NCBI GenBank assembly: GCA_937872895.1
Contig: CALMUP010000009.1
Coordinates: forward strand, 186,001-250,000
DNA length: 64,000 bases
Reading direction: 5' to 3'
Source of the DNA: an uncultured Verrucomicrobiota bacterium
Lineage (GTDB): Bacteria > Verrucomicrobiota > Kiritimatiellia > CAIVKH01
Shown: piece by piece, positions 38,434 to 49,072 of the stretch
Numbering within the stretch: position 1 is the stretch's first letter
Layout: the number at the start of each line of letters is the position of its first letter
Made by a program: the position numbers and the translations under genes
Notes under the pieces: model-generated
Told to the model about the DNA's origin: nothing
Databases searched by the model: none
The model's input: the letters and a program-made list of their open reading frames with translations, nothing else

Positions 38434-39021
38434 TCAGGCCTGCGGCTTCTCGCTGAGGTACTCGCACCGGTAGCGCTGAACGCGGATCCCCGGGCTCCAG
38501 TAGTTCGCCGGCCAGCCCGCCTTCATTTTCAGGTGTTGCACGAACGCGGCCGGGTCGGTCAGTTCCTCCCAGACCGATGGCAGGAAGGTGGCGGCCCGGC
38601 GGCCCTCGCGCAGGATCAAGCCGTCGGTGCCCGGCGTGAGTTGCTGCAACAGGTCTTGTTCATCGCGTACCGCCATCGGTTCGGGCGGGGTTAGGATGGA
38701 GATCGACAGCACGATCTCCGGGACTTCGTGCGGCTGCACCGGGCCGAAACGCGGATCGTGGATCGCCGCGGCGGTGGCATGTTCGTTCACGTCGTCGACC
38801 AGCGGCTGCACCGCTTCGATCCGGCCGATGCAACCGCGCAAGTGCCCATGGCGCTCGAGGGTGACGAAGGTGGCACGAGGTGCGAGCAGGGAAGGATCCG
38901 GGACATCGCGCGTGATGACGGGTGGGTGGCCGTGCGCTACGCCATAGGCCAGCGAGGCGCGCGCGAGGGCGAGCAGGAACGACGCGTAGGCGGAACAGGT
39001 GTGTTCAGGTGGTGAAGGCAT
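38434..39021 (-). CDS. AmmeMemoRadiSam system protein A (AMMECR1 domain)
   Basis: 195 residues of the AMMECR1 fold: FVTLERHGHLRGCIGRIEAVQPL holds the characteristic LRGCIG motif, and GTDGLILREGRRAATFLPSVWEEL matches the C-terminal half. AMMECR1 proteins have no proven biochemical activity. It overlaps the MEMO gene upstream by 17 bases, and GGAG lies three bases before its ATG, so the two are co-translated. Together with the divergent radical SAM gene they form the named AmmeMemoRadiSam trio. Confidence 0.9.
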   Translation of the reverse strand: MPSPPEHTCSAYASFLLALARASLAYGVAHGHPPVITRDVPDPSLLAPRATFVTLERHGHLRGCIGRIEAVQPLVDDVNEHATAAAIHDPRFGPVQPHEVPEIVLSISILTPPEPMAVRDEQDLLQQLTPGTDGLILREGRRAATFLPSVWEELTDPAAFVQHLKMKAGWPANYWSPGIRVQRYRCEYLSEKPQA

Positions 39022-39802
39022 AAGCTCCGTATCCGACCACGCTCGACCGGTCGCCGGCGGTGTCGCCGGAGTTGCGCAGGTCGAGCGTGGTCGCGGTGAG
39101 GTGAAGGTCGCGGGCGAGGCAAAGCAGGCCGCGGATCGCGCGTTGGCCGCAGGCCTGGTCGGGGGCGATGGCCTCCGGATCGAGGGCAACGATGGCGCGG
39201 GAGGTCGCGTTGTCGATGGCCTGCGCCCGTGCATAGGGGAGGTAGTGGCTCAGGTCGGAGCTGATCACGACCAGGGTTTCGTCGCCGCCCCACACCGCGG
39301 CCAGCGCCGCCGCCATGGTCGCGTCGTCGGTGTCGCCGACCACGATGGGTGCGATCCGGAAATCCGCCAGGACATGCTGGAGGAAGGGAAGGTGGACCTC
39401 GATGCCGTGTTCGTCGCGGTGGGCGCGGTCCAGGACATGGACCCCGGGGCAGGCAAGCAGCGCGGCGGAGGCCTCGGAATCGACCGATACATCGCCCAGC
39501 GGGGTGCGGAACGCGGTGGCGCTCGAGGTGGCCATGCCCCGGAATCCAACGCGGTGGGAAGGGCTGGCGATGACCACGCGCCGGATGCCGCTGCGTGAAC
39601 CGGACAGGGTGGCGTAGGCGGAACCGGCGATCGGTCCGGAATAGATGTACCCGGCATGCGGAGCGATCAGGGCCTTGGGCGGGCTGCCGGTGAATCCGCG
39701 GACGTCGGCGAGGTACGAGGCGATTTCGTGGCGCAGTTCGCGGGGATGGGCCGGATAAAACATTCCGGCCACGGCGGGCGGACGTATGGTTTCGGCGGTC
39801 AT
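39005..39802 (-). CDS. AmmeMemoRadiSam system protein B (MEMO1 family)
   Basis: 265 residues of the MEMO/LigB-like dioxygenase fold. AGMFYPAHPRELRHEI near the N-terminus, PKALIAPHAGYIYSGPIAGSAY (His-Gly-Tyr), VVIASPSHRVGFRG, DRAHRDEHGIEVHLPFLQ and VISSDLSHYLPY give the conserved His/Asp/Glu set. Human MEMO1 binds reduced copper or iron; the bacterial role is unknown. The start at 39802 is chosen because GAGGG precedes it; ATG 39817 would leave almost no leader. It reads from the minus-strand half of the symmetric promoter. Confidence 0.9.
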   Translation of the reverse strand: MTAETIRPPAVAGMFYPAHPRELRHEIASYLADVRGFTGSPPKALIAPHAGYIYSGPIAGSAYATLSGSRSGIRRVVIASPSHRVGFRGMATSSATAFRTPLGDVSVDSEASAALLACPGVHVLDRAHRDEHGIEVHLPFLQHVLADFRIAPIVVGDTDDATMAAALAAVWGGDETLVVISSDLSHYLPYARAQAIDNATSRAIVALDPEAIAPDQACGQRAIRGLLCLARDLHLTATTLDLRNSGDTAGDRSSVVGYGAYAFTT

Positions 39803-39818
39803 GGCATCAGCCCTCATC

Positions 39819-39854
39819 CGTATTGTAGCTGGCCTTCACGCGGGCTACAATACG
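39819..39854. promoter_or_regulatory. Perfectly symmetric, overlapping divergent promoter of the AmmeMemoRadiSam genes
   Basis: CGTATTGTAGC (39819-39829) and GCTACAATACG (39844-39854) form an 11-bp perfect inverted repeat. On the plus strand TTGTAG (39823-39828), 17 bases, TACAAT (39846-39851) reads as a promoter; on the minus strand TTGTAG (39850-39845), 17 bases, TACAAT (39827-39822) does too. Each -35 overlaps the other's -10. Both -10 boxes end 19 bases from their start codons (39802 and 39871), so the arrangement is symmetric. Confidence 0.7.
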
Positions 39855-39870
39855 GTTTGGGGAAAAGACC

Positions 39871-40968
39871 ATGAACGAGCGGATACAACGGGACGCCGCG
39901 GTGGTACCGACCCGCTTCTGGGAATCTTTGCCGAACGGCCGGGTTGCCTGCACGGTCTGTCCTAACCATTGCCGCCTGGCCGAGGGGCAGCGCGGGGCCT
40001 GTTTCGTGCGCGCCGCGTTGGGCGGCGAGGTCGTGCTCACCACCTACGGGCGTTCCAGCGGATTTTGCATTGATCCGATTGAAAAGAAGCCGCTCAACCA
40101 TTTCCTGCCGGGCACGCCGGTGTTGTCGTTCGGGACGGCGGGATGCAACCTCACCTGCCGGTTCTGCCAGAATTGGAGCATCAGCAAATCGCGGGAGACA
40201 GATATCCTCGCGGATGCCGCGTCACCCAAGCAGATCGCGGCGGCAGCCCTTCACCATGGCTGTCCCAGCGTGGCCTTCACTTACAACGACCCGGTCATCT
40301 TCCTGGAGTACGCGGTGGACATCGCCCGTGCCTGCCATGAGGTGGGGGTGCGCACGGTCGCGGTCACCGCGGGTTATATCAATCCGGAACCGCGGCGGGA
40401 GTTCTTCGCGCACATGGATGCGGCCAATGTCGATCTCAAGGGGTTTACCAAGGATTTTTACCAACGGGTGTGCGGGGCGACCTTGTCGGCGGTGCAGGAC
40501 ACCCTGGTGTACCTCGTGAAGGAGACCGACGTGTGGGTGGAGTTGACCACATTGCTGATCCCTGGCGAGAACGACCGCGATGAGGAGGTGGATGCGATGA
40601 CGCGGTGGATCGCGGCTGAACTGGGGTCGGAAGTCCCGCTGCATTTCACCGCCTTCCATCCCGACTACAAGATGACCGACCGCCCGCCCACGCCTCCGGA
40701 AACACTGACCCGGGCCAGGGCGATCGCCCGGGCCAACGGACTGCACTACGTCTACACCGGCAATGTCCACGACGAGGCGGGAGGCAGCACCACCTGCCCC
40801 GGGTGTGGCCAGCGGGTCATCGGCCGCGACTGGTACGAGATCACCGACTGGCAGCTCGACGATCACGGACGCTGCCGCCGATGTGGATATTCCTGCGCCG
40901 GATTCTTCGCCGGTCCACCCGGCCGTTGGGGTGCCCGCCGGCAACCCGTGCGGCTTGGCGTAAGTTAA
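39871..40968 (+). CDS. amrS: AmmeMemoRadiSam system radical SAM enzyme
   Basis: 365 residues. The radical SAM cluster motif C92-x3-C96-x2-C99 lies in GTAGCNLTCRFCQNW, preceded by a Cys-rich N-terminal motif, CTVCPNHCRLAEGQRGACF. The C-terminus adds a zinc-ribbon-like CPGCGQ and CRRCGYSCAGFF. This is the layout of the AmmeMemoRadiSam radical SAM protein, related to pyruvate-formate-lyase-activating-like enzymes. It cleaves S-adenosylmethionine to drive an unknown reaction on an unknown substrate, probably with the A and B proteins. It starts 69 bases from the MEMO gene, divergently; GGGGAAAAG precedes the ATG. Confidence 0.93.
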   Translation: MNERIQRDAAVVPTRFWESLPNGRVACTVCPNHCRLAEGQRGACFVRAALGGEVVLTTYGRSSGFCIDPIEKKPLNHFLPGTPVLSFGTAGCNLTCRFCQNWSISKSRETDILADAASPKQIAAAALHHGCPSVAFTYNDPVIFLEYAVDIARACHEVGVRTVAVTAGYINPEPRREFFAHMDAANVDLKGFTKDFYQRVCGATLSAVQDTLVYLVKETDVWVELTTLLIPGENDRDEEVDAMTRWIAAELGSEVPLHFTAFHPDYKMTDRPPTPPETLTRARAIARANGLHYVYTGNVHDEAGGSTTCPGCGQRVIGRDWYEITDWQLDDHGRCRRCGYSCAGFFAGPPGRWGARRQPVRLGVS

Positions 40969-41143: not shown

Positions 41144-41172
41144 TTTGTCGTGCACGGGGCATGCGGTAGATT
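41144..41172 (+). promoter_or_regulatory. Probable promoter of the Mla-like operon, nearly leaderless
   Basis: TTTGTC (41144-41149), 17-base spacer, TAGATT (41167-41172), the same -10 as the Rieske operon. The -10 ends six bases before the mlaE ATG (41179), so the transcript would begin at or next to the start codon. Confidence 0.45.
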
Positions 41173-41178
41173 GGGCGG

Positions 41179-41967
41179 ATGTTGCTGATCAGTTCCATGG
41201 GGCGGGGGGTGGTGGCGTGGCTGGCCGATGTGCGCCACACCGTCGCGGTGGCGGCGGCGGTGGTCCGGGTCGCGCTGCAGCCGCGCTACTGGCCGCGCAC
41301 GGTGCGGAATGTACTGGCGCGGCAGATCCTGTTCACGGGGTACCAGGCGACGCGGTTCGTTTCGACGGTGGCGCTGCTGGTGGGCATCTCGGTGGTGGTG
41401 CAGGCCCAGGTGTGGACCGCCGCGCTGGGCCAGTCCTCGCTGCTCGGACCGGTGCTGGTGATGGTGATCATCCGCGAGGTCGGCCCGTTGCTCACCAACT
41501 TCATCGTGATCGCGCGCAGCGGCACGGCAATGGCGACCGAACTGGCGTCGATGCGGGTGATGGGCGAGACGCAGGTGCTGGATGCACAGGGCATCGATCC
41601 GTTCATCTACCTGGTGCTGCCGCGTGCGGTCGGGGCGGCGGTCTCGGTTTTCTGTCTGAGTGTGATCTTTGTTTTCGTGTCCTTCATCGGCGGGTTCCTG
41701 AGCGGGGTGTTGCTCGGGGCGAATACCGGAGGCCCGTGGTTGTTCATCGACAGCGTGTTCGGGGCGATCCGGCCGGCCGATGTCTTCAACCTGCTGGCCA
41801 AGACCCTGATTCCCGGTTTGTTGATGGGCACGATCTGTTGTATCCAGGGCCTGGGTATCCGCGGGGTGGCCACCGAGGTGCCGCAGGCGGCAACCCGCGC
41901 GGTGGTCAAGTCGATCATGGCGATGTTCCTGACCTCGGCCCTGGTGTCCCTGCTCACGTATTTATGA
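41179..41967 (+). CDS. mlaE: MlaE-family ABC permease
   Basis: 262 residues with about five membrane helices. The MlaE signatures include ILFTGYQATRFVSTVALLVGISVV, the IIREVGPLLTNFIVIARSGTAMATEL loop (EVGP...RSG) and RVMGETQVLDAQGIDPF. In the Mla system it forms the inner-membrane channel moving phospholipids between membranes. Its stop overlaps the next gene (ATGA), whose product should be its ATPase. ATG 41179 has no ribosome site; an internal ATG at 41197 is the alternative. Confidence 0.92.
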   Translation: MLLISSMGRGVVAWLADVRHTVAVAAAVVRVALQPRYWPRTVRNVLARQILFTGYQATRFVSTVALLVGISVVVQAQVWTAALGQSSLLGPVLVMVIIREVGPLLTNFIVIARSGTAMATELASMRVMGETQVLDAQGIDPFIYLVLPRAVGAAVSVFCLSVIFVFVSFIGGFLSGVLLGANTGGPWLFIDSVFGAIRPADVFNLLAKTLIPGLLMGTICCIQGLGIRGVATEVPQAATRAVVKSIMAMFLTSALVSLLTYL

Positions 41968-42683
41968 AACACGATTTCCATCAACCACACTGCCCGGTTG
42001 ATCCGGTACTGGAGTTGTCCGGGCTGCACCTGGCTGCTACGCCGCCGTACGACACCGGTCTGGCCGGCCTCGACCTGGTGGTGCGGCGCGGGGAGCTGGT
42101 GGTGGTCCTGCTCGAGGAGGGGGTGTGGCGCCATCCGCTCGCGGATGTGGTGTCGGGGTTGTTGCCGCCGGATGCGGGCGCGGTGCGGATCTTCGGCACG
42201 GGATGGGACGGTTTGTCGCCGGATGTCCAGGCGGTGAGCCGGTGGAAGATCGGCCGGGTGTTTGAAGGCAACGGATGGGTCAGCAACCTCGATGTCGATG
42301 AGAACATCACCTTGTCGGAGCGGCACCATACGCGGCGGCCGTTGGCGGAAATCGAGGACGAGATGCAACGGCTTGCCGGAGTGGCGGGGCTGGACGGGAT
42401 CCCGCCGGGACGTCCGGCTGCGGTCAGCCGTGAGCGGTTGCAGCGGTGCGAATGGGTGCGTTCGATGATGGGCCAGCCGTGGCTGGTGCTGCTGGAGCGG
42501 CCGGGCCAGGACCTGTCCCCGGGTTGGCGCACGGGGTGCGGCGGTTTGGTCGCGCAGGCCCGGGCACGTGGCGCGGCGGTGATCTGGCTGTGCGAGGATG
42601 CCGCCGAGTGGAACGACAAATCCCTCAACCCGACCTTGAAATTGCGGGCCGATGGCAACACACTGCGCGTGGGTAACCCATGA
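41964..42683 (+). CDS. MlaF-position ABC protein with all ATPase motifs degenerate
   Basis: 239 residues, in the right place, length and overall pattern for MlaF, yet every nucleotide motif is altered. The Walker A site reads LLEEGVWRHPLA (about 49-60) with no GxxGxGK. The Q-loop Gln is Glu in RVFEGNGW. The signature LSGG reads VSRE, and Walker B reads VLLERPGQDLSP, with Glu178-Arg179 replacing Asp-Glu. The switch His region reads WLCEDA. The frame is intact, overlaps its neighbours by 4 bases on both sides, and has the local base composition, so it is not a decaying pseudogene by those signs. It is probably a non-hydrolysing subunit. Confidence 0.75.
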   Translation: MKHDFHQPHCPVDPVLELSGLHLAATPPYDTGLAGLDLVVRRGELVVVLLEEGVWRHPLADVVSGLLPPDAGAVRIFGTGWDGLSPDVQAVSRWKIGRVFEGNGWVSNLDVDENITLSERHHTRRPLAEIEDEMQRLAGVAGLDGIPPGRPAAVSRERLQRCEWVRSMMGQPWLVLLERPGQDLSPGWRTGCGGLVAQARARGAAVIWLCEDAAEWNDKSLNPTLKLRADGNTLRVGNP

Positions 42684-43621
42684 GTACCAAACCATTCCAG
42701 TTTCGTTACGTGAACGAGATCGTCGGCGGATTTGTCCTGCTGGTCGTGGTGCTGCTGCTCGCGGCGGTCATCGTGGCCGGACGGGCGCAAGGCTGGTTCG
42801 AGCCGGTGTACCGGATCCACCTTGATTTCCCGCCACAGGGGTCGCTCGATGTGCAGATCGGGACGCCGGTGCAGATCCTCGGTGCGACGGTCGGCCGGGT
42901 CGAGGAGATCGATGTCGACGAGGATGGATTCATGACCGGCGTGATGACGGTGAAAGGGGATTTCTACCAGTTTGTCCGTACCGATTCGCAGGCCATCGTC
43001 AAGCGGAAGTTCGGGATTGCCGGCGATGCGTTCATCGAGATCACCAAGGGGACCGGTCCGGCCTTGCCGACCGGTGCCGGGTTGGTGGCTATCAAGGATA
43101 CGGATCTCAACGAATTGCTCGAGCAGTTGCTCAGCCAGGTGCGCGATGCCACCCTGCCGTTGCTGGAAAGTGTCAGGAAGGCGGCCGACGAATACGCCGG
43201 CTTGGCCGCGGAGTTGCGTTCGCCGGAGGGGGCGCTGCTGCGGGTCATGGCGAATGTCGAGGCGATTACCCGCAAGATCGAGCAGGGCGAAGGGCCGGCC
43301 GGCCGCCTGCTCGGCGATCCGGCGATGGCCGAGGAGATCCAGGGCATTGTCAACCAGGTCGCGCAGATCCTGGCCGACGTCAAGGCCGCCACGGTCAACC
43401 TTCCCCCGATGGCCGCCACGGTCAATCGCGAGGTACAGGATCTTCCGGGTACGGTGTGGCAGACCCAACAGGCGATCCGCGAGGCGGAGCGGTTGATCAC
43501 CGGCGTGCAGCAGCATTGGTTGATCCGCAAGCATATTCCCCAAACGGAATGGACGCCGTTGATTCCCGCCTATGACATTCCGCGCGGGGCGGGATCGGCA
43601 GGCAAGGAGCAAACGCCATGA
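42680..43621 (+). CDS. mlaD: MlaD-family MCE-domain protein
   Basis: 313 residues. One N-terminal membrane helix (about 15-38, IVGGFVLLVVVLLLAAVIVAG), then a single MCE domain (about 45-135) with the YRIHLDFPPQGSLDVQIGTPVQILGATVGRVEEI core, and a long helical tail with VRKAADEYAGLAAEL and NQVAQILADVKAATVNLPPM segments. MCE proteins form hexameric tubes that shuttle lipids across the periplasm. The gene overlaps the pseudo-ATPase by 4 bases and the lipoprotein gene by 4 bases. The long tail resembles Mce/PqiB tunnels more than short MlaD. Confidence 0.92.
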   Translation: MSTKPFQFRYVNEIVGGFVLLVVVLLLAAVIVAGRAQGWFEPVYRIHLDFPPQGSLDVQIGTPVQILGATVGRVEEIDVDEDGFMTGVMTVKGDFYQFVRTDSQAIVKRKFGIAGDAFIEITKGTGPALPTGAGLVAIKDTDLNELLEQLLSQVRDATLPLLESVRKAADEYAGLAAELRSPEGALLRVMANVEAITRKIEQGEGPAGRLLGDPAMAEEIQGIVNQVAQILADVKAATVNLPPMAATVNREVQDLPGTVWQTQQAIREAERLITGVQQHWLIRKHIPQTEWTPLIPAYDIPRGAGSAGKEQTP

Positions 43622-44568
43622 AGCGAACGATGATGGTGTGGATCGTGGTGGCCCTTATGGCTGCTGGGTGTGCGACGGTACCCAAGGAACAGAAGGTGCC
43701 TGACTGGCGCGACAACGATCCGATGATTGCCCAGTTGTCGGCAACGGCGCGCAAGGCCTTTGATACCGGGGATGTACCCACCTCGGTGGTGTTGTACCGC
43801 CGGGCGTTGGACCGGGCGCGTGCAATGGACAATGCCCCGGAGATCGGCCGGAACGCCTATAACCTTGCCGCCGGTTTGATCGCGCTTGAGGAATGGGACG
43901 AGGTTACCGGGTTGCTCGCCGAGGCGGAGCGGGAGACGGTGCGGGCCGGCGGAGACGCTGGCCCGATTTTATTGCTGGCGGCGGAGGCGCGGATGATGCA
44001 GCGGGAGTGGTCGGCAGCGGGGGTGGTGATCGACCGGCTTGAGGCGTTGCCGGTCGATGAAACCACCCGCGGGCACGCATATGTGTTGCGGGCGAGGATC
44101 GCCTGCGAGCGCAAGGATGCCGGGCGTGCCGAGGGTTTCCTGCAGCGCGCACGCGGGTACCTGGGCAAGCAGAAGGATCCTGGATTGGCGGCGTCGGTGT
44201 CGGAAGTCGCGGCGGAGATCGCCCTGTTGAACGGGTTGTGGGCGGATGCCGCAGTAGCCTACGACCGGCAGGCGGCATGGTTGCAGCGGGCCGGTCGGGC
44301 CAGGGAAATGGCCGAGGCGCTGGAGCGGGCCGGTCGCAATTACCTGGTGGCGGGCGATGGTGCGCTGGCGGCGGATCGTTTTTACCGGTCAGCCCGCAGT
44401 TTGATGGCACAGGGGAACTACCTGGATGCCTTGCGGGTGGTGGAGCAGGCGGTACAGGCAGCGCCGCCGGAGGGGGCGGACGATGTCGGAGCGGCCATTG
44501 CCCGTTTATTTGATGAGATTCGTCGTGAAGTGGAGAAGGCCAGCCGGGTTGGTGTAACCCGGCCCTGA
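43618..44568 (+). CDS. TPR-containing lipoprotein of the Mla-like operon
   Basis: 316 residues. A lipoprotein signal ends in LMAAGCAT (Cys about 18). The rest is helical repeats with TPR-like spacing: ARKAFDTGDVPTSVVLYRRALDRA, NAYNLAAGLIALEEWDEV, RGHAYVLRARIACERKDAGRAEGFL and NYLDALRVVEQAVQAAP. It should sit on the inner face of a membrane, most likely the outer one, as the acceptor or scaffold for the MCE tube. Its position matches that of ABC-transport auxiliary lipoproteins in other MCE operons, but the fold differs. It is the fourth gene of the operon. Confidence 0.8.
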   Translation: MKRTMMVWIVVALMAAGCATVPKEQKVPDWRDNDPMIAQLSATARKAFDTGDVPTSVVLYRRALDRARAMDNAPEIGRNAYNLAAGLIALEEWDEVTGLLAEAERETVRAGGDAGPILLLAAEARMMQREWSAAGVVIDRLEALPVDETTRGHAYVLRARIACERKDAGRAEGFLQRARGYLGKQKDPGLAASVSEVAAEIALLNGLWADAAVAYDRQAAWLQRAGRAREMAEALERAGRNYLVAGDGALAADRFYRSARSLMAQGNYLDALRVVEQAVQAAPPEGADDVGAAIARLFDEIRREVEKASRVGVTRP

Positions 44569-44670: not shown

Positions 44671-45138
44671 ATGAAGATCAACCATGTAGTCGTGGCGGTT
44701 TGGATCGGGCTTACGGCCGTGGTGGCTCAGGCTGCGCCAAGCATGATGAGCCTGCAGGTGCAGAGCAGTCCGTTGCGTGCCACGCCGAGTCCGCTGGGCC
44801 GGGTGGTCGCGACCATCCAATACGGGGACCGGGTCGAGGTGGTTGGCCGGCAAACCGGCTGGATGCAGGTCAAGTCGCCGGCAGGCCAAGTGGGCTGGAT
44901 CAATGAATCGGCGTTGACCCGCAACCGGATCGTACTGAAGGCCGGAGCAGAGGACGTCAGCCGTACCGCATCAGGCGAAGAACTCGCCCTGGCCGGCAAA
45001 GGTTTCAACTCGCAGGTCGAAGCGGACTTCAAAGCCAGGAACGAGAACATCGATTTCACCTGGATCGACCGGATGGAGGCCATCGTGGTCAGCGATCCGG
45101 AAGTCGTGGTGTTCCTCAAGGAAGGCGGATTGCAGTGA
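44671..45138 (+). CDS. Secreted SH3b-domain protein
   Basis: 155 residues. A signal peptide (about 1-21, ending AQA) is followed by an SH3b domain (about 27-80): LQVQSSPLRATPSPLGRVVATIQYGDRVEVVGRQTGWMQV, then GWINESAL. The C-terminal 65 residues (with GKGFNSQVEADFKARN) do not resemble a known domain. SH3b domains usually bind peptidoglycan peptides. The stop overlaps the M48 lipoprotein start by one base. The ATG lacks a clear ribosome site. Confidence 0.83.
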   Translation: MKINHVVVAVWIGLTAVVAQAAPSMMSLQVQSSPLRATPSPLGRVVATIQYGDRVEVVGRQTGWMQVKSPAGQVGWINESALTRNRIVLKAGAEDVSRTASGEELALAGKGFNSQVEADFKARNENIDFTWIDRMEAIVVSDPEVVVFLKEGGLQ

Positions 45139-46049
45139 TGAAACCCGTACATCGTTGGATGCTGGGCCTGGCGGCCCTTTCGGGCCTGGTGCTGGTTTCG
45201 GGGTGTGCCTCGGTGGCCAAGGTGGGGGCGGCGGTGGGCCAGGCCACCGGTACCCTGACTCCGCAGCAGGCCGAATCGCTGGTCAAGAGTGCGGAGGCGG
45301 TGGAGAAGACCTTCAAGGACATCACGCCCGAGCAGGAATACTTCATCGGCCGATCGGTCGGCGCGACGATCATCAGTACCTACAAGGTGTACGACAACGA
45401 CGAGGCGACGCGGTACCTGAACCTGCTGGGCCAGTCGGTGGCGCGGTTTTCCGACATGCCGAATACCTTCAAGGGGTACCGGTACCTGATCCTCGACACC
45501 GACGAGATCAACGCGTTTGCCGCGCCGGGCGGATTCATCTTCATCTCGCGGGGCATGATCCGGTTGTGCCGGACGGAGGACGACCTGGCCGCGGTGATCG
45601 CGCACGAGGTGGGTCATGTCCAGTTGCGGCATGCCGTCAAGGCGATCAAGTCGAGCCGCCTGACCTCGGCGCTGACCACCCTGGCTGTCGAGGGAACCAA
45701 GAGTTTCGCCGGTGATCAACTCGCGCAGTTGACCTCGGCCTTCGAGGGCAGCATCACCGATATCACCTCCACGATGATGAACAGCGGGTATGCCCGCGGC
45801 CAGGAGCGCGAGGCGGACCGTGCGGCGATCGTGATCCTGCAACGTATGGGCTACCGTCAGGAGGCGCTGGTTGATGTGCTGGGGCGGATGGGCAAGGCCC
45901 TGCAAACCGACCAGCGTGGTTTTGGTTCAACACATCCGCCGGCCGACTCCCGGATCAAGGAACTGGTTCCCATCATCGACGACACCCGGACTCCGGTACC
46001 GACAGCCGCCCGCAAGAAACGGTTTGACCGCCTGCTTCAGGGCATCTGA
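45138..46049 (+). CDS. M48-family zinc metalloprotease lipoprotein
   Basis: 303 residues. A lipoprotein signal ends in LVSGCAS (Cys about 18). The peptidase M48 motif HEVGH is at 156-160 (VIAHEVGHVQLRHA), with the third ligand Glu in GQEREADRAAIV. The layout resembles BepA/LoiP-type periplasmic proteases that clear misassembled outer-membrane proteins. AAGGAAGG lies upstream. A GTG at 45135 is an alternative start. It pairs with the SH3b gene, which may direct it to the wall. Confidence 0.88.
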   Translation: MKPVHRWMLGLAALSGLVLVSGCASVAKVGAAVGQATGTLTPQQAESLVKSAEAVEKTFKDITPEQEYFIGRSVGATIISTYKVYDNDEATRYLNLLGQSVARFSDMPNTFKGYRYLILDTDEINAFAAPGGFIFISRGMIRLCRTEDDLAAVIAHEVGHVQLRHAVKAIKSSRLTSALTTLAVEGTKSFAGDQLAQLTSAFEGSITDITSTMMNSGYARGQEREADRAAIVILQRMGYRQEALVDVLGRMGKALQTDQRGFGSTHPPADSRIKELVPIIDDTRTPVPTAARKKRFDRLLQGI

Positions 46050-46059
46050 GCGGTCCCCC

Positions 46060-48198
46060 GTGAAATCACTCCTCGCGAAACCGTGGATCCAGGCCGTCCT
46101 GATCGGACTGATCAGCACGCTGGTCGCGCTCTTGCTCTGGTTTGCGGGCAAGCTGGATGGCTGGGAAAATACCACCTGGGCGTGGCGGGTGACCCACTTT
46201 GCCGAGCCGAGCGCGGCCACCGACGACATCAAGGTCATCCTGCTCGACCAGTCCAGTCTCGACTGGGCGGCCAACGAGATGGGCCTGCCCTGGCCGTGGA
46301 TGCGCGAGACCTACGCGGCCATGCTCGACTTCTGCCGGCGCGGGGGTGCCAAGGTCATCGCCTTCGACGTCCTGTTCACCGAGCCGTCGGCCTACATGGT
46401 GTCCGACGATGTCCTGTTCGGCGAGCACATCGGACAGGCCTCCAATTTCGTCACCGCGGTGTTCCTCGGCCAGACCGCCGGCCAGACCTCCAACTGGCCG
46501 GCCTTCCTGCCGCCTTCGCCGGTGCGCGTGACGGGGTGGGAGGGGTGGCTGACCACCGCGCCGGAGGCGCGTGTGGTCGAGCCGCGGGCCTCGTTTCCGG
46601 TGCCGGAAATAGCCACCCCGTCCACGATGATGGTCAGTGTTCGCGAGGAACTCGACGGCGACAACACCTTCCGCCGTGCCGCACCGCTCCGGGTGTTCGA
46701 CGGACAGTTTGTCCCGATGCTCGGCCTTGGCGCGTACCTGGTCGCGGATCGACCTCGGCCCTACGAACTGGACATCGCGCCCGGCGCACTTCGGGTTGGC
46801 GACAAGACGATCCCGATCGATTCGCGTGGCCGTGTCCTGTTGAAGTTCCGCGGCCCCTCCGGCACCCATGAAACGCTTAGCGCCAAGGCGGTGTTGCAGT
46901 CCGAGTTGCGCATCCAGGAGGGCGGCCAGCCGGTTATTGATCCCGAGGAGTTGCGCGGCAAGTACATTCTGTTCGGTTTCAGCGCGCCCGGGCTGAAGGA
47001 TTTGAAATCCGTCCCGCTGGCCGGGGATTATCCCGGGGTCGAAGTGCACGCGACGTTCCTCGATAACCTGCTGGCCCAGGATTTCATGCAGGATGCCCCG
47101 CGTGTCCTGGTCATCCTGTTTGCGCTCGGGCTTGGTATCGTTGCCGCGTTGCTGATCGTCCGGTGCCGAACGGTGATCCAGAGCGTGGCCTGGGCGGGCG
47201 GATTCATCCTGCTTCCTTACGCGGCCGGTTATGCCGCCTACCCGCTGAACGTCTGGTGGCCGATCCAGATGCCGGCTCTGGCGGTGCTGCTGGCGATCGG
47301 ATTGGCCGAAATCGTCAACTACGCCACCGAGGGACGCCAGAAGCGGTTCATCAAGAGCGCCTTCAAGCAGTACTTGAGCAGCGATGTCATCGAGCAAATC
47401 CTTGTTGATCCCTCCCAGCTCAAGCTTGGCGGGGAAAAACGCGAACTCTCGATCTTTTTCTCCGACCTCCAGGGGTTTTCGGCCATCTCGGAAAAACTAG
47501 GTCCGGTCGCCCTGACCGCCCTGCTCAACGACTACCTGACCGACATGAGCGATATCATCATGGAGGAGGGGGGAACGGTGGACAAGTACGAGGGCGACGC
47601 GATCATCGCCTTCTGGAATGCCCCGATGCACCAGACCGACCATGCCGTCCGAGCCTGCCGCGCCGCCCTGCGGTGCCAGCGGAAACTGGCCGAGCGGCGC
47701 AAGGAATTCTTCGACCGCACCGGCGTCGATTTGTACATGCGCATCGGCATCCACACCGGCGAGGTCGTGGTTGGCAACATGGGCTCCAACAACCGGTTCA
47801 ACTACACGGTGCTGGGCGATGCGGCGAATCTCGCCTCGCGCCTCGAGGGTGCGAACAAGCAATTCGGCACCTACCTGATGGTGTCCGAGGTCACCTGGTC
47901 GCAGGCGGAATCCGGATTCACCGCCCGCGAGATCGGATCCATCATGGTCGTCGGGCGCAAAGCACCGGTCCGCGTGTTTGACGTGCTGGGTCTGGCCGAT
48001 GAGGATAAACCCTCATGGCTGGAGGATTGGCATGCGGCGATGCTGGCCTGCCGGGCCAAGCGCTGGAGCGAGGCACGCGACCTGTTCGCCCGGTTTGGGG
48101 ATGACCCGCTGGCCCGCAAGTACCGCGATCACCTGGATCGCCTGCTTCACGGCGATCTGGCTGAGTGGGATGGCATCTGGAAACTTACGGAAAAGTGA
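46060..48198 (+). CDS. CHASE2-domain class III adenylate cyclase
   Basis: 712 residues. An N-terminal membrane helix (about 8-28), an extracellular CHASE2 sensor domain (about 30-335), then three membrane helices (about 345-415), and a class III cyclase domain (about 440-640). Metal-binding Asp469 (FFSDLQGFS) and Asp513 (KYEGDAII) are present, and Lys509 with Asp587 in VLGDAANLASRL fit ATP rather than GTP as substrate. It should turn an envelope signal into cAMP. The GTG at 46060 lacks a ribosome site, so translation may be coupled to M48, whose stop is 10 bases away. Confidence 0.88.
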   Translation: MKSLLAKPWIQAVLIGLISTLVALLLWFAGKLDGWENTTWAWRVTHFAEPSAATDDIKVILLDQSSLDWAANEMGLPWPWMRETYAAMLDFCRRGGAKVIAFDVLFTEPSAYMVSDDVLFGEHIGQASNFVTAVFLGQTAGQTSNWPAFLPPSPVRVTGWEGWLTTAPEARVVEPRASFPVPEIATPSTMMVSVREELDGDNTFRRAAPLRVFDGQFVPMLGLGAYLVADRPRPYELDIAPGALRVGDKTIPIDSRGRVLLKFRGPSGTHETLSAKAVLQSELRIQEGGQPVIDPEELRGKYILFGFSAPGLKDLKSVPLAGDYPGVEVHATFLDNLLAQDFMQDAPRVLVILFALGLGIVAALLIVRCRTVIQSVAWAGGFILLPYAAGYAAYPLNVWWPIQMPALAVLLAIGLAEIVNYATEGRQKRFIKSAFKQYLSSDVIEQILVDPSQLKLGGEKRELSIFFSDLQGFSAISEKLGPVALTALLNDYLTDMSDIIMEEGGTVDKYEGDAIIAFWNAPMHQTDHAVRACRAALRCQRKLAERRKEFFDRTGVDLYMRIGIHTGEVVVGNMGSNNRFNYTVLGDAANLASRLEGANKQFGTYLMVSEVTWSQAESGFTAREIGSIMVVGRKAPVRVFDVLGLADEDKPSWLEDWHAAMLACRAKRWSEARDLFARFGDDPLARKYRDHLDRLLHGDLAEWDGIWKLTEK

Positions 48199-48202
48199 CA
48201 CG

Positions 48203-49072
48203 ATGAAACTGGTGTTTGGCGGAGTGCGTGGTTCCTGTCCGGTGGCCCAGCCGGACTGCATGCAGTACGGGGGCGAGACCACATCCATCCTGATCGAAGG
48301 GGCACAAGGCGAACGGATCCTGGTGGACGGCGGAACCGGAGTCCGCACCCTGGGCAAACGCCTGCTCCAGACATCCGGCTCGACCAAGGCGTGGATGTTC
48401 ATCACGCACTACCACCTCGACCACGTATCCGGCCTGCCGATGTTGCCGATCCTCTATCGACCCGATTGGCGGCTTACCATCGCCGCGCCGGATCACCATC
48501 CCATCCATTTCCGGGAAATCATGGCGCGCATCTTTGACGTGCCGCTCTGGCCGTTGCAGGTGGAGGACCTGAAGGCCACCATCGAATACGAATTGCTCGA
48601 CGGCATCACCGCCGCCACCCCTTATGCGTGTGGTGGTATCGAGGTTTCCTGGTGCCCGCTGCATCATCCCGGAGGGTGCACGGCCTACCGCTTTGACGAA
48701 CCGGCCACCGGGGCCTCGGTGGTGATTGCCACGGACATCGAATGGGCCTTGTCCACCCCCGGCGAGCGCGGCTATCTGGAGCAGCTGCTGACGTTTCCGT
48801 CACCCGCACAGTTGCTGGTCATGGATGGCCAGTACGAAGATCGGGAGATCGCCTCCTTCCGCGGCTGGGGGCATAGCTCCTGGCAGGAAGCCATGTCGGT
48901 AGCTTCCCGCGGCCGGGTTAAACAACTACTCCTGACCCATCACGATCCGGCTTCCCATGATCGCCTGCTCGACGAAAGACGCCGGTCGATTCGTGCGCAA
49001 GCGGCCTGGATTGACCTGGCCCGGCAAGGTATGGAACTCGATCTTCCAGGCGATGTTTCCGTCCAGCAATGA
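48203..49072 (+). CDS. MBL-fold metallo-hydrolase next to the cyclase
   Basis: 289 residues. The metallo-beta-lactamase motif is H69-x-H71-x-D73-H74 (THYHLDHVSG), with GGVRGSCPV at the N-terminus, CPLHHPGG in the middle, VIATDIEW and LLLTHHDP. The GVRGS N-terminus is typical of a subgroup resembling RNase Z-like phosphodiesterases, including class II cyclic nucleotide phosphodiesterases. It starts 4 bases after the cyclase stop. A role in hydrolysing the cyclase product is plausible but unproven. No signal peptide: cytoplasmic. Confidence 0.83.
   Translation: MKLVFGGVRGSCPVAQPDCMQYGGETTSILIEGAQGERILVDGGTGVRTLGKRLLQTSGSTKAWMFITHYHLDHVSGLPMLPILYRPDWRLTIAAPDHHPIHFREIMARIFDVPLWPLQVEDLKATIEYELLDGITAATPYACGGIEVSWCPLHHPGGCTAYRFDEPATGASVVIATDIEWALSTPGERGYLEQLLTFPSPAQLLVMDGQYEDREIASFRGWGHSSWQEAMSVASRGRVKQLLLTHHDPASHDRLLDERRRSIRAQAAWIDLARQGMELDLPGDVSVQQ

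Follow-up and report, generated by a model that had tools for sequence, protein, structure and literature searches.

We found that the gene in the mlaF position of an Mla-like lipid transport operon encodes a protein with the predicted fold of an ABC nucleotide-binding domain (NBD) in which every ATPase motif has been replaced. We refer to this protein as pseudo-MlaF. The operon is in a 64,000-nucleotide stretch of DNA (the window) from an uncultured Verrucomicrobiota bacterium. Loss of the motifs, the predicted fold, purifying selection, a single origin, a conserved operon, and linkage to a class III cyclase are all evident from the sequences. The best explanation, and one that we consider somewhat better than an even bet, is that a non-hydrolyzing NBD holds or gates an MlaE/MlaD conduit in a distinct and ancient branch of the MCE/Mla systems.

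The gene in the mlaF position has lost the ATPase motifs

The pseudo-MlaF gene (41964-42683) is an intact reading frame of 239 amino acids that overlaps mlaE (41179-41967) and mlaD (42680-43621) by 4 bases each, as the original prediction had it. These genes, and the features of the window operon below, are on the + strand. We assign the product as an ATPase-dead NBD protein based on the frame, profiles, alignment, and predicted fold. The original prediction also listed replacements in the ATPase motifs, and alignment to two intact MlaF paralogues from the same genome showed that it was right about every one. The Walker A sequence GGSGCGKST of the two paralogues is LEEGVWRHP in the window gene, the Q-loop Gln is Glu, and the signature SGGMRKR is SRERLQR. 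Similarly, the Walker B Asp-Glu is Glu-Arg, the D-loop Asp is Ser, and the switch His is Glu (42594-42596). That is, the window gene has none of the features expected of an ABC ATPase (Walker A, Q-loop, LSGG, Walker B, D-loop, and switch His).

Pseudo-MlaF matched profiles for LolD, FtsE, and MlaF. It scored 20.8 bits against Pfam ABC_tran (PF00005), below the curated cut-off of 25 bits, and 27.3 bits against the MlaF equivalog model NF008809, far below the cut-off of 441 bits. Judged from its residues, the conclusion that pseudo-MlaF could not hydrolyze ATP in the usual ABC manner is well supported.

The predicted structure is a confident ABC NBD fold (AF2 model, pLDDT 94.8, pTM 0.92). Foldseek matches to the model were ABC NBDs with TM up to 0.83, near structures of YbbA, MacB, LolD, and MlaF; the MlaF structures were 6xgz (TM 0.79-0.80) and 6xbd (TM 0.80). 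By this model, pseudo-MlaF belongs among proteins with the NBD fold. A search of the Foldseek viral library for viral relatives returned generic ABC matches only.

Two long shadow ORFs lie over mlaF and mlaD, one on the minus strand (41981-43612, 543 aa) and one on the plus strand (41145-42683) that is open upstream through mlaE. They are there because third-position GC is high, and they are a trap for naive gene calling. We also considered that the gene could be a chance ORF or that the true gene is antisense. This was ruled out by orthology, codon-position GC, and dN/dS, all of which favor the + strand gene.

Loss of the motifs is uniform in a widespread family

We gathered loci around matching mlaE genes from relatives and from GTDB contigs; most are from MAGs. 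The scan that gave 75 distinct pseudo-MlaF orthologues also matched 52 other ABC ATPases. None of the former has a P-loop and every one of the latter does, with a clear gap in score between the two groups (1e-43 vs 1e-31). The original prediction held that intact Walker A and B motifs in close relatives would indicate a recent mutation. No relative had either motif intact, whether from the same genus, family, or class or from another phylum, and none of the 75 orthologues has a P-loop. Together with dN/dS values well below 1 (below), this rules out a recent or local mutation. Among readable F genes beside a matching MlaE, Walker A was missing from 42 of 42 in the first set of loci and likewise from the 71 in a larger alignment. 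At the former Walker B (42480-42503, WLVLLERP in the window), Asp had become Glu in 35 of 42 aligned orthologues and the catalytic Glu was gone in 36 of 42.

Intermediates in motif loss were sought among weaker matches (L094, L095, L096, and L102-L104), and none was found. These matches were either fully intact ABC proteins of other kinds or fully dead members of the family. L094 and L095 (from genomes G124 and G137) are the most diverged members. At the threshold used, no MlaE was detected near the pseudo-MlaF gene of G124 (L183).

The family is present in Kiritimatiellia-like genomes, Desulfobacterota, Planctomycetota, Auribacterota, and one deltaproteobacterium labeled Myxococcota. In a phylum-wide sample, approximately 50 of 388 genomes had pseudo-MlaF, all of them within the class of the window. 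Elsewhere it was found in 6/291 genomes from the class of a Desulfobacterales genome, 5/198 from the class of a Phycisphaerales genome, 5/44 from the phylum of an Auribacterota genome, and 1/345 from the phylum of G397 (a Myxococcota MAG by its NCBI label). Three of the matches are on contigs of 5.6, 7.2, and 3.5 Mb, which argues against errors in binning.

Constraint is on the putative MlaE-binding face

We estimated dN/dS (NG86) from close pairs. Between the window and its closest relative dS is near saturation, and the figures for that pair are rough. A ratio near 1, indicative of decay, had been named as the result that would count against selection. Instead, values for pseudo-MlaF were ~0.11-0.33 (median 0.22). 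In those pairs mlaE gave 0.14, and the two pairs of canonical MlaF analyzed gave 0.07 and 0.09. Judging from these ratios, constraint on pseudo-MlaF is real, yet looser than that on a working ATPase. Selection for a non-catalytic role, as first proposed for this gene, is well supported by dN/dS and by the loss of motifs in all orthologues.

We compared conservation along pseudo-MlaF to that along canonical MlaF. The former Walker A (42111-42137) is unconserved in the family (1.35 bits/column vs 3.69 in canonical MlaF), as are the former signature (42423-42437, VSRER; 1.33 vs 3.75) and the D-loop (1.51 vs 3.7-3.75). In contrast, the segment containing the Q-loop and the coupling-helix groove (42240-42329) is strongly conserved (2.91 vs 3.08) with its catalytic Gln replaced, and contains the clade-specific residues R98, W105, N108, and H122. 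The helix after the signature also stays conserved (3.06 vs 3.52). Invariant or near-invariant residues specific to the family are W81, R98, W105, N108, H122, R150, W164, and W208. Conservation, as read from these alignments, is gone from the nucleotide pocket and retained on the putative face for the MlaE coupling helix. This is the pattern expected if binding to the permease persists without binding of nucleotide, and we infer that pseudo-MlaF binds MlaE.

Pseudo-MlaF and its permease form separate clades

The pseudo-MlaF genes formed one clade (100/100) on a long stem, and the 67 MlaEs with a pseudo-MlaF neighbor formed one clade (type-3) apart from canonical MlaE (SH-aLRT 100). These trees indicate that the pseudo-MlaF family has a single ancient origin. 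The best tree placed pseudo-MlaF nearer to NBDs of the LolD/MacB type; grouping with canonical MlaF was unfavored and was not rejected (AU p 0.155).

The pairing of E and F was strict. A dead F adjoined 67/67 type-3 MlaEs and an intact F adjoined 18/18 canonical MlaEs in the set used for pairing. At three further E loci (L018, L032, and L049) no F was found and the available sequence ended close by. One lone type-3 MlaE (L042, at ~20126-20902 of contig G035:C3) had neither F nor D, which suggests that F is sometimes dispensable; the next gene resembles an SPFH-type protein. The original prediction called for a search for a second MlaF in the genome. Intact copies do exist elsewhere in the genome of the window, each with its own canonical MlaE alongside, and the genome has 54 ABC_tran matches. 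More generally, canonical MlaE was present in 13/13 genomes checked, with an intact MlaF wherever its neighbor could be read. At L165 (G048:C18), a canonical and a type-3 mla operon are ~7 kb apart on one contig.

The operon extends beyond E, F, and D

The core unit, as seen across the loci, is E-F-D followed by a gene for a TPR-like lipoprotein, in an order conserved across phyla. This is wider than originally described: the original prediction had covered neither the TPR lipoprotein, nor the linked cyclase, nor how old the family is. The mlaE-like permease (PF02405, 1.4e-49) scored 169 bits against the family profile, above the cut-off of 22.5. In E. coli MlaE, the coupling helix joins TM2 and TM3 (PMC7790496). 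By alignment and topology, the equivalent region in the window (ELASMRVMGETQVLDAQGIDP) is at 41539-41601. It is retained with a clade-specific sequence and is more conserved than the protein as a whole (3.2 vs 2.75 bits/column). The MlaD is long, with a TM helix, one MCE domain (PF02470, 9.9e-9; 35.8 bits against a cut-off of 25.1), and a helical C-terminal region. Its AF2 model (mean pLDDT 81.5) has the MCE fold and TM helix, and no C-terminal barrel was predicted. The TPR-like lipoprotein (43618-44568; lipobox ending in LMAAGC) overlaps mlaD by 4 bases, and almost every type-3 locus, those of Desulfobacterota included, has a homologue after mlaD.

Four more genes follow in the window. The first two encode a bacterial SH3 protein (44671-45138; PF08239, 3.7e-11), found in 23 type-3 loci compared to 0/30 canonical loci, and an M48 metallopeptidase lipoprotein that is BepA/LoiP-like (45135-46049; PF01435, 2.8e-32). 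The third encodes a protein with a CHASE2 domain and a class III adenylate/guanylate cyclase domain (46060-48198, GTG start inferred; PF05226, 7.5e-43 and PF00211, 9e-22). The conserved next gene (48203-49072) encodes a hydrolase of the metallo-beta-lactamase (MBL) fold (PF12706, 4.8e-13) that is covered by a cluster of 22 type-3 loci. The hydrolase matched a model for cyclic-nucleotide phosphodiesterases (NF041851) weakly and below the cut-off (2.1e-8, 33.9 of 400 bits), and it and the CHASE2 cyclase are possibly a cyclase-phosphodiesterase pair.

A gene for a radical SAM protein (39871-40968) is just upstream of the mla operon. Beside it are two overlapping minus-strand ORFs that are AMMECR1- and MEMO1-like by eye; the region with all three is 38434-40968.

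A class III cyclase is linked to the operon

Of 58 distinct type-3 loci (L060=L208 and L052=L225 were each counted once), 29 have a class III cyclase no more than 8 kb away, compared to none of 30 canonical Mla loci. The difference has a Fisher p of 4e-7, and because the loci are related by descent, both the p-value and the counts overstate independence. The place of the cyclase is fixed: it is either at about +6 kb (E-F-D-TPR-SH3-M48-cyclase) or, in Desulfobacterota-type genomes, directly upstream of E. We checked 15 genomes with only one class III cyclase, and in 11 of them it belongs to the pseudo-MlaF operon. The sensor domains of the linked cyclases differ (CHASE2 in some; dCache-GAF, GAF, or a response regulator in others). 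Two arrangements with different sensor domains suggest more than one linkage event.

The Kiritimatiellia cyclase has kept its metal, substrate, and transition-state residues (D-K-D-D-N-R, intact in the window). The upstream cyclase of Desulfobacterota-type loci, and the cyclase of one planctomycete, have lost the first Asp for metal and both transition-state residues (Asn and Arg). Pfam still scores these dead domains highly. Degenerate homologues are near or directly upstream of the pseudo-MlaF operon at L060 (1494-3932), L209, L210, L211, L212, L213, L214, L159, and L206, and it is these that have dCache-GAF, GAF, or response-regulator domains as sensors. The deltaproteobacterial genome G397 has two pseudo-MlaF operons, on contigs C81 and C35 (L116 and L154), each with a degenerate cyclase upstream. 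Loci in which the ATPase and the adjacent cyclase are both dead suggest that binding, and not catalysis, has been kept there.

A possible mechanism and alternatives

We propose that pseudo-MlaF is a cytoplasmic MlaE-binding subunit that would have kept both the NBD fold and its surface for holding the coupling helix, without binding and hydrolyzing ATP as ABC proteins do. Two copies would probably cap the MlaE dimer and either keep it in a conducting state or toggle it from one such state to another. Passive movement of lipids between the inner membrane and the periplasmic side would then run through the MlaE2-MlaD6 assembly, and the TPR lipoprotein is a likely partner on the outer-membrane side. 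In many lineages, the transmembrane or response-regulator cyclase-type protein of the operon would probably sense the state of the envelope and be linked to the complex. The lipid transport complex may be a passive or signal-gated channel and not a pump; we infer its passivity, the direction of lipid movement, and any gating from the comparisons above. A more specific version, in which a sensor with an active or dead cyclase domain has taken over control from ATP hydrolysis, making a signal-gated, ATP-independent conduit, is tentative and we hold it to be doubtful. If it is true, then in Desulfobacterota the conduit would combine an inactive ATPase and an inactive cyclase.

The leading alternative is that the complex is a receptor and not a transporter. 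MlaE and MlaD would serve to bind lipid or to sample it, with the dead NBD relaying the state of MlaE to the cyclase or cyclase-like protein. The proportion of type-3 loci with a cyclase at a fixed position (29/58 vs 0/30 canonical loci) fits this, as does the finding that a lone class III cyclase is in the pseudo-MlaF operon in 11/15 genomes. The dead upstream cyclase of Desulfobacterota-type operons favors a role in binding or signaling. However, roughly half of type-3 loci have no cyclase nearby, the loci are not independent and the p-value is overstated, and MlaE and MlaD retain conservation of the transporter type. We consider a receptor unlikely, and the output that it would have (cNMP in Kiritimatiellia, protein-protein contact where the cyclase is dead) equally so. 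It seems less probable still that an intact ATPase, either canonical MlaF or another NBD, powers the complex in trans as a heterodimer or by transient replacement. Such ATPases are available, given the intact MlaF genes and the 54 ABC_tran matches in the genome of the window. In ABC dimers, however, a composite ATP site takes Walker A from one NBD and the signature from the other. Pseudo-MlaF lacks both its Walker A and signature halves of each composite site, so a heterodimer with an intact ATPase is unlikely. There would be no complete site on either face, and powering in trans would need replacement and not pairing. In addition, the coupling region of type-3 MlaE has its own sequence and F is always coupled to the operon. 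No ATPase gene recurs alongside it: the MacAB-like exporter upstream at L043 is not conserved in the window, and in ~323 kb around 67 type-3 operons we found no intact ABC ATPase and few P-loop-like matches, which lack the ABC signature.

It is very unlikely that pseudo-MlaF is a new type of ATPase in which nucleotide is held by W81, R93, R98, W105, H122, R150, R166, and W208. There are invariant Trp, Arg, and His residues that are particular to the clade, but several of the named positions align to the coupling groove or to structural strands, canonical NBDs often have R166 and R93 too, and the P-loop region varies freely. The idea that the gene is a decaying pseudogene or a sequencing artifact can be practically dismissed. 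Constraint is indeed weaker than that on canonical MlaF (dN/dS of 0.07-0.09), but there are 75 distinct intact frames, dN/dS is well below 1, some residues are invariant, and the origin is single and ancient.

Implications

We found no description of a lipid transport system with a dead MlaF in the open-licence literature searched. ABC transporters are defined by hydrolysis of ATP, and whether MlaFEDB imports or exports lipids is still debated. A dead NBD that is kept across several phyla bears on the need of Mla and MCE systems for ATP in each direction of lipid movement, and on what an NBD does for its permease beyond hydrolysis. Inert subunits can go unnoticed under annotations such as 'MlaF' or 'ABC transporter ATP-binding protein' when these are based on synteny. 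The link to a class III cyclase suggests a route from the state of lipids in the outer envelope to second-messenger signaling.

Comparison with known systems

The window system resembles E. coli MlaFEDB (MlaF2E2D6B2) in its MlaE and MlaD homologues, an F gene in the place of MlaF, the predicted fold, and the groove for the coupling helix. In contrast to the E. coli system, its F has no ATPase motifs, its MlaD is long, and it is extended by a TPR lipoprotein and, often, by a cyclase. With the order E-F-D-TPR and neither MlaB nor MlaC in the operon, as judged from Pfam matches and ORFs there, it is not a six-component pathway of the E. coli type.

The minimal MlaEFD system of Veillonella parvula (Grasekamp et al. 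2023, PMC10665443) is similar in having an E-F-D core with a long MlaD, and both operons are without MlaA, MlaB, and MlaC. In the section consulted, the V. parvula MlaF is treated as an ATPase and no dead variant is described, unlike the window gene. Like the window, PVC bacteria in that survey are reported to have no barrel on MlaD, and MlaF was omitted from the concatenated tree since its annotation was uncertain (PMC10665443).

Asymmetric ABC exporters (such as TM287/288 and CFTR) also have degenerate nucleotide-binding motifs. However, one of their composite ATP sites is still complete, whereas the sole NBD gene of the window operon has neither half, and the operon by itself does not encode an asymmetric transporter with one degenerate site. 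Systems such as PqiABC and YebST/LetAB are MCE lipid conduits that work without ATP hydrolysis by an ABC ATPase. They have neither MlaE nor an NBD, whereas the window system retains an NBD-fold subunit together with an ABC-type permease.
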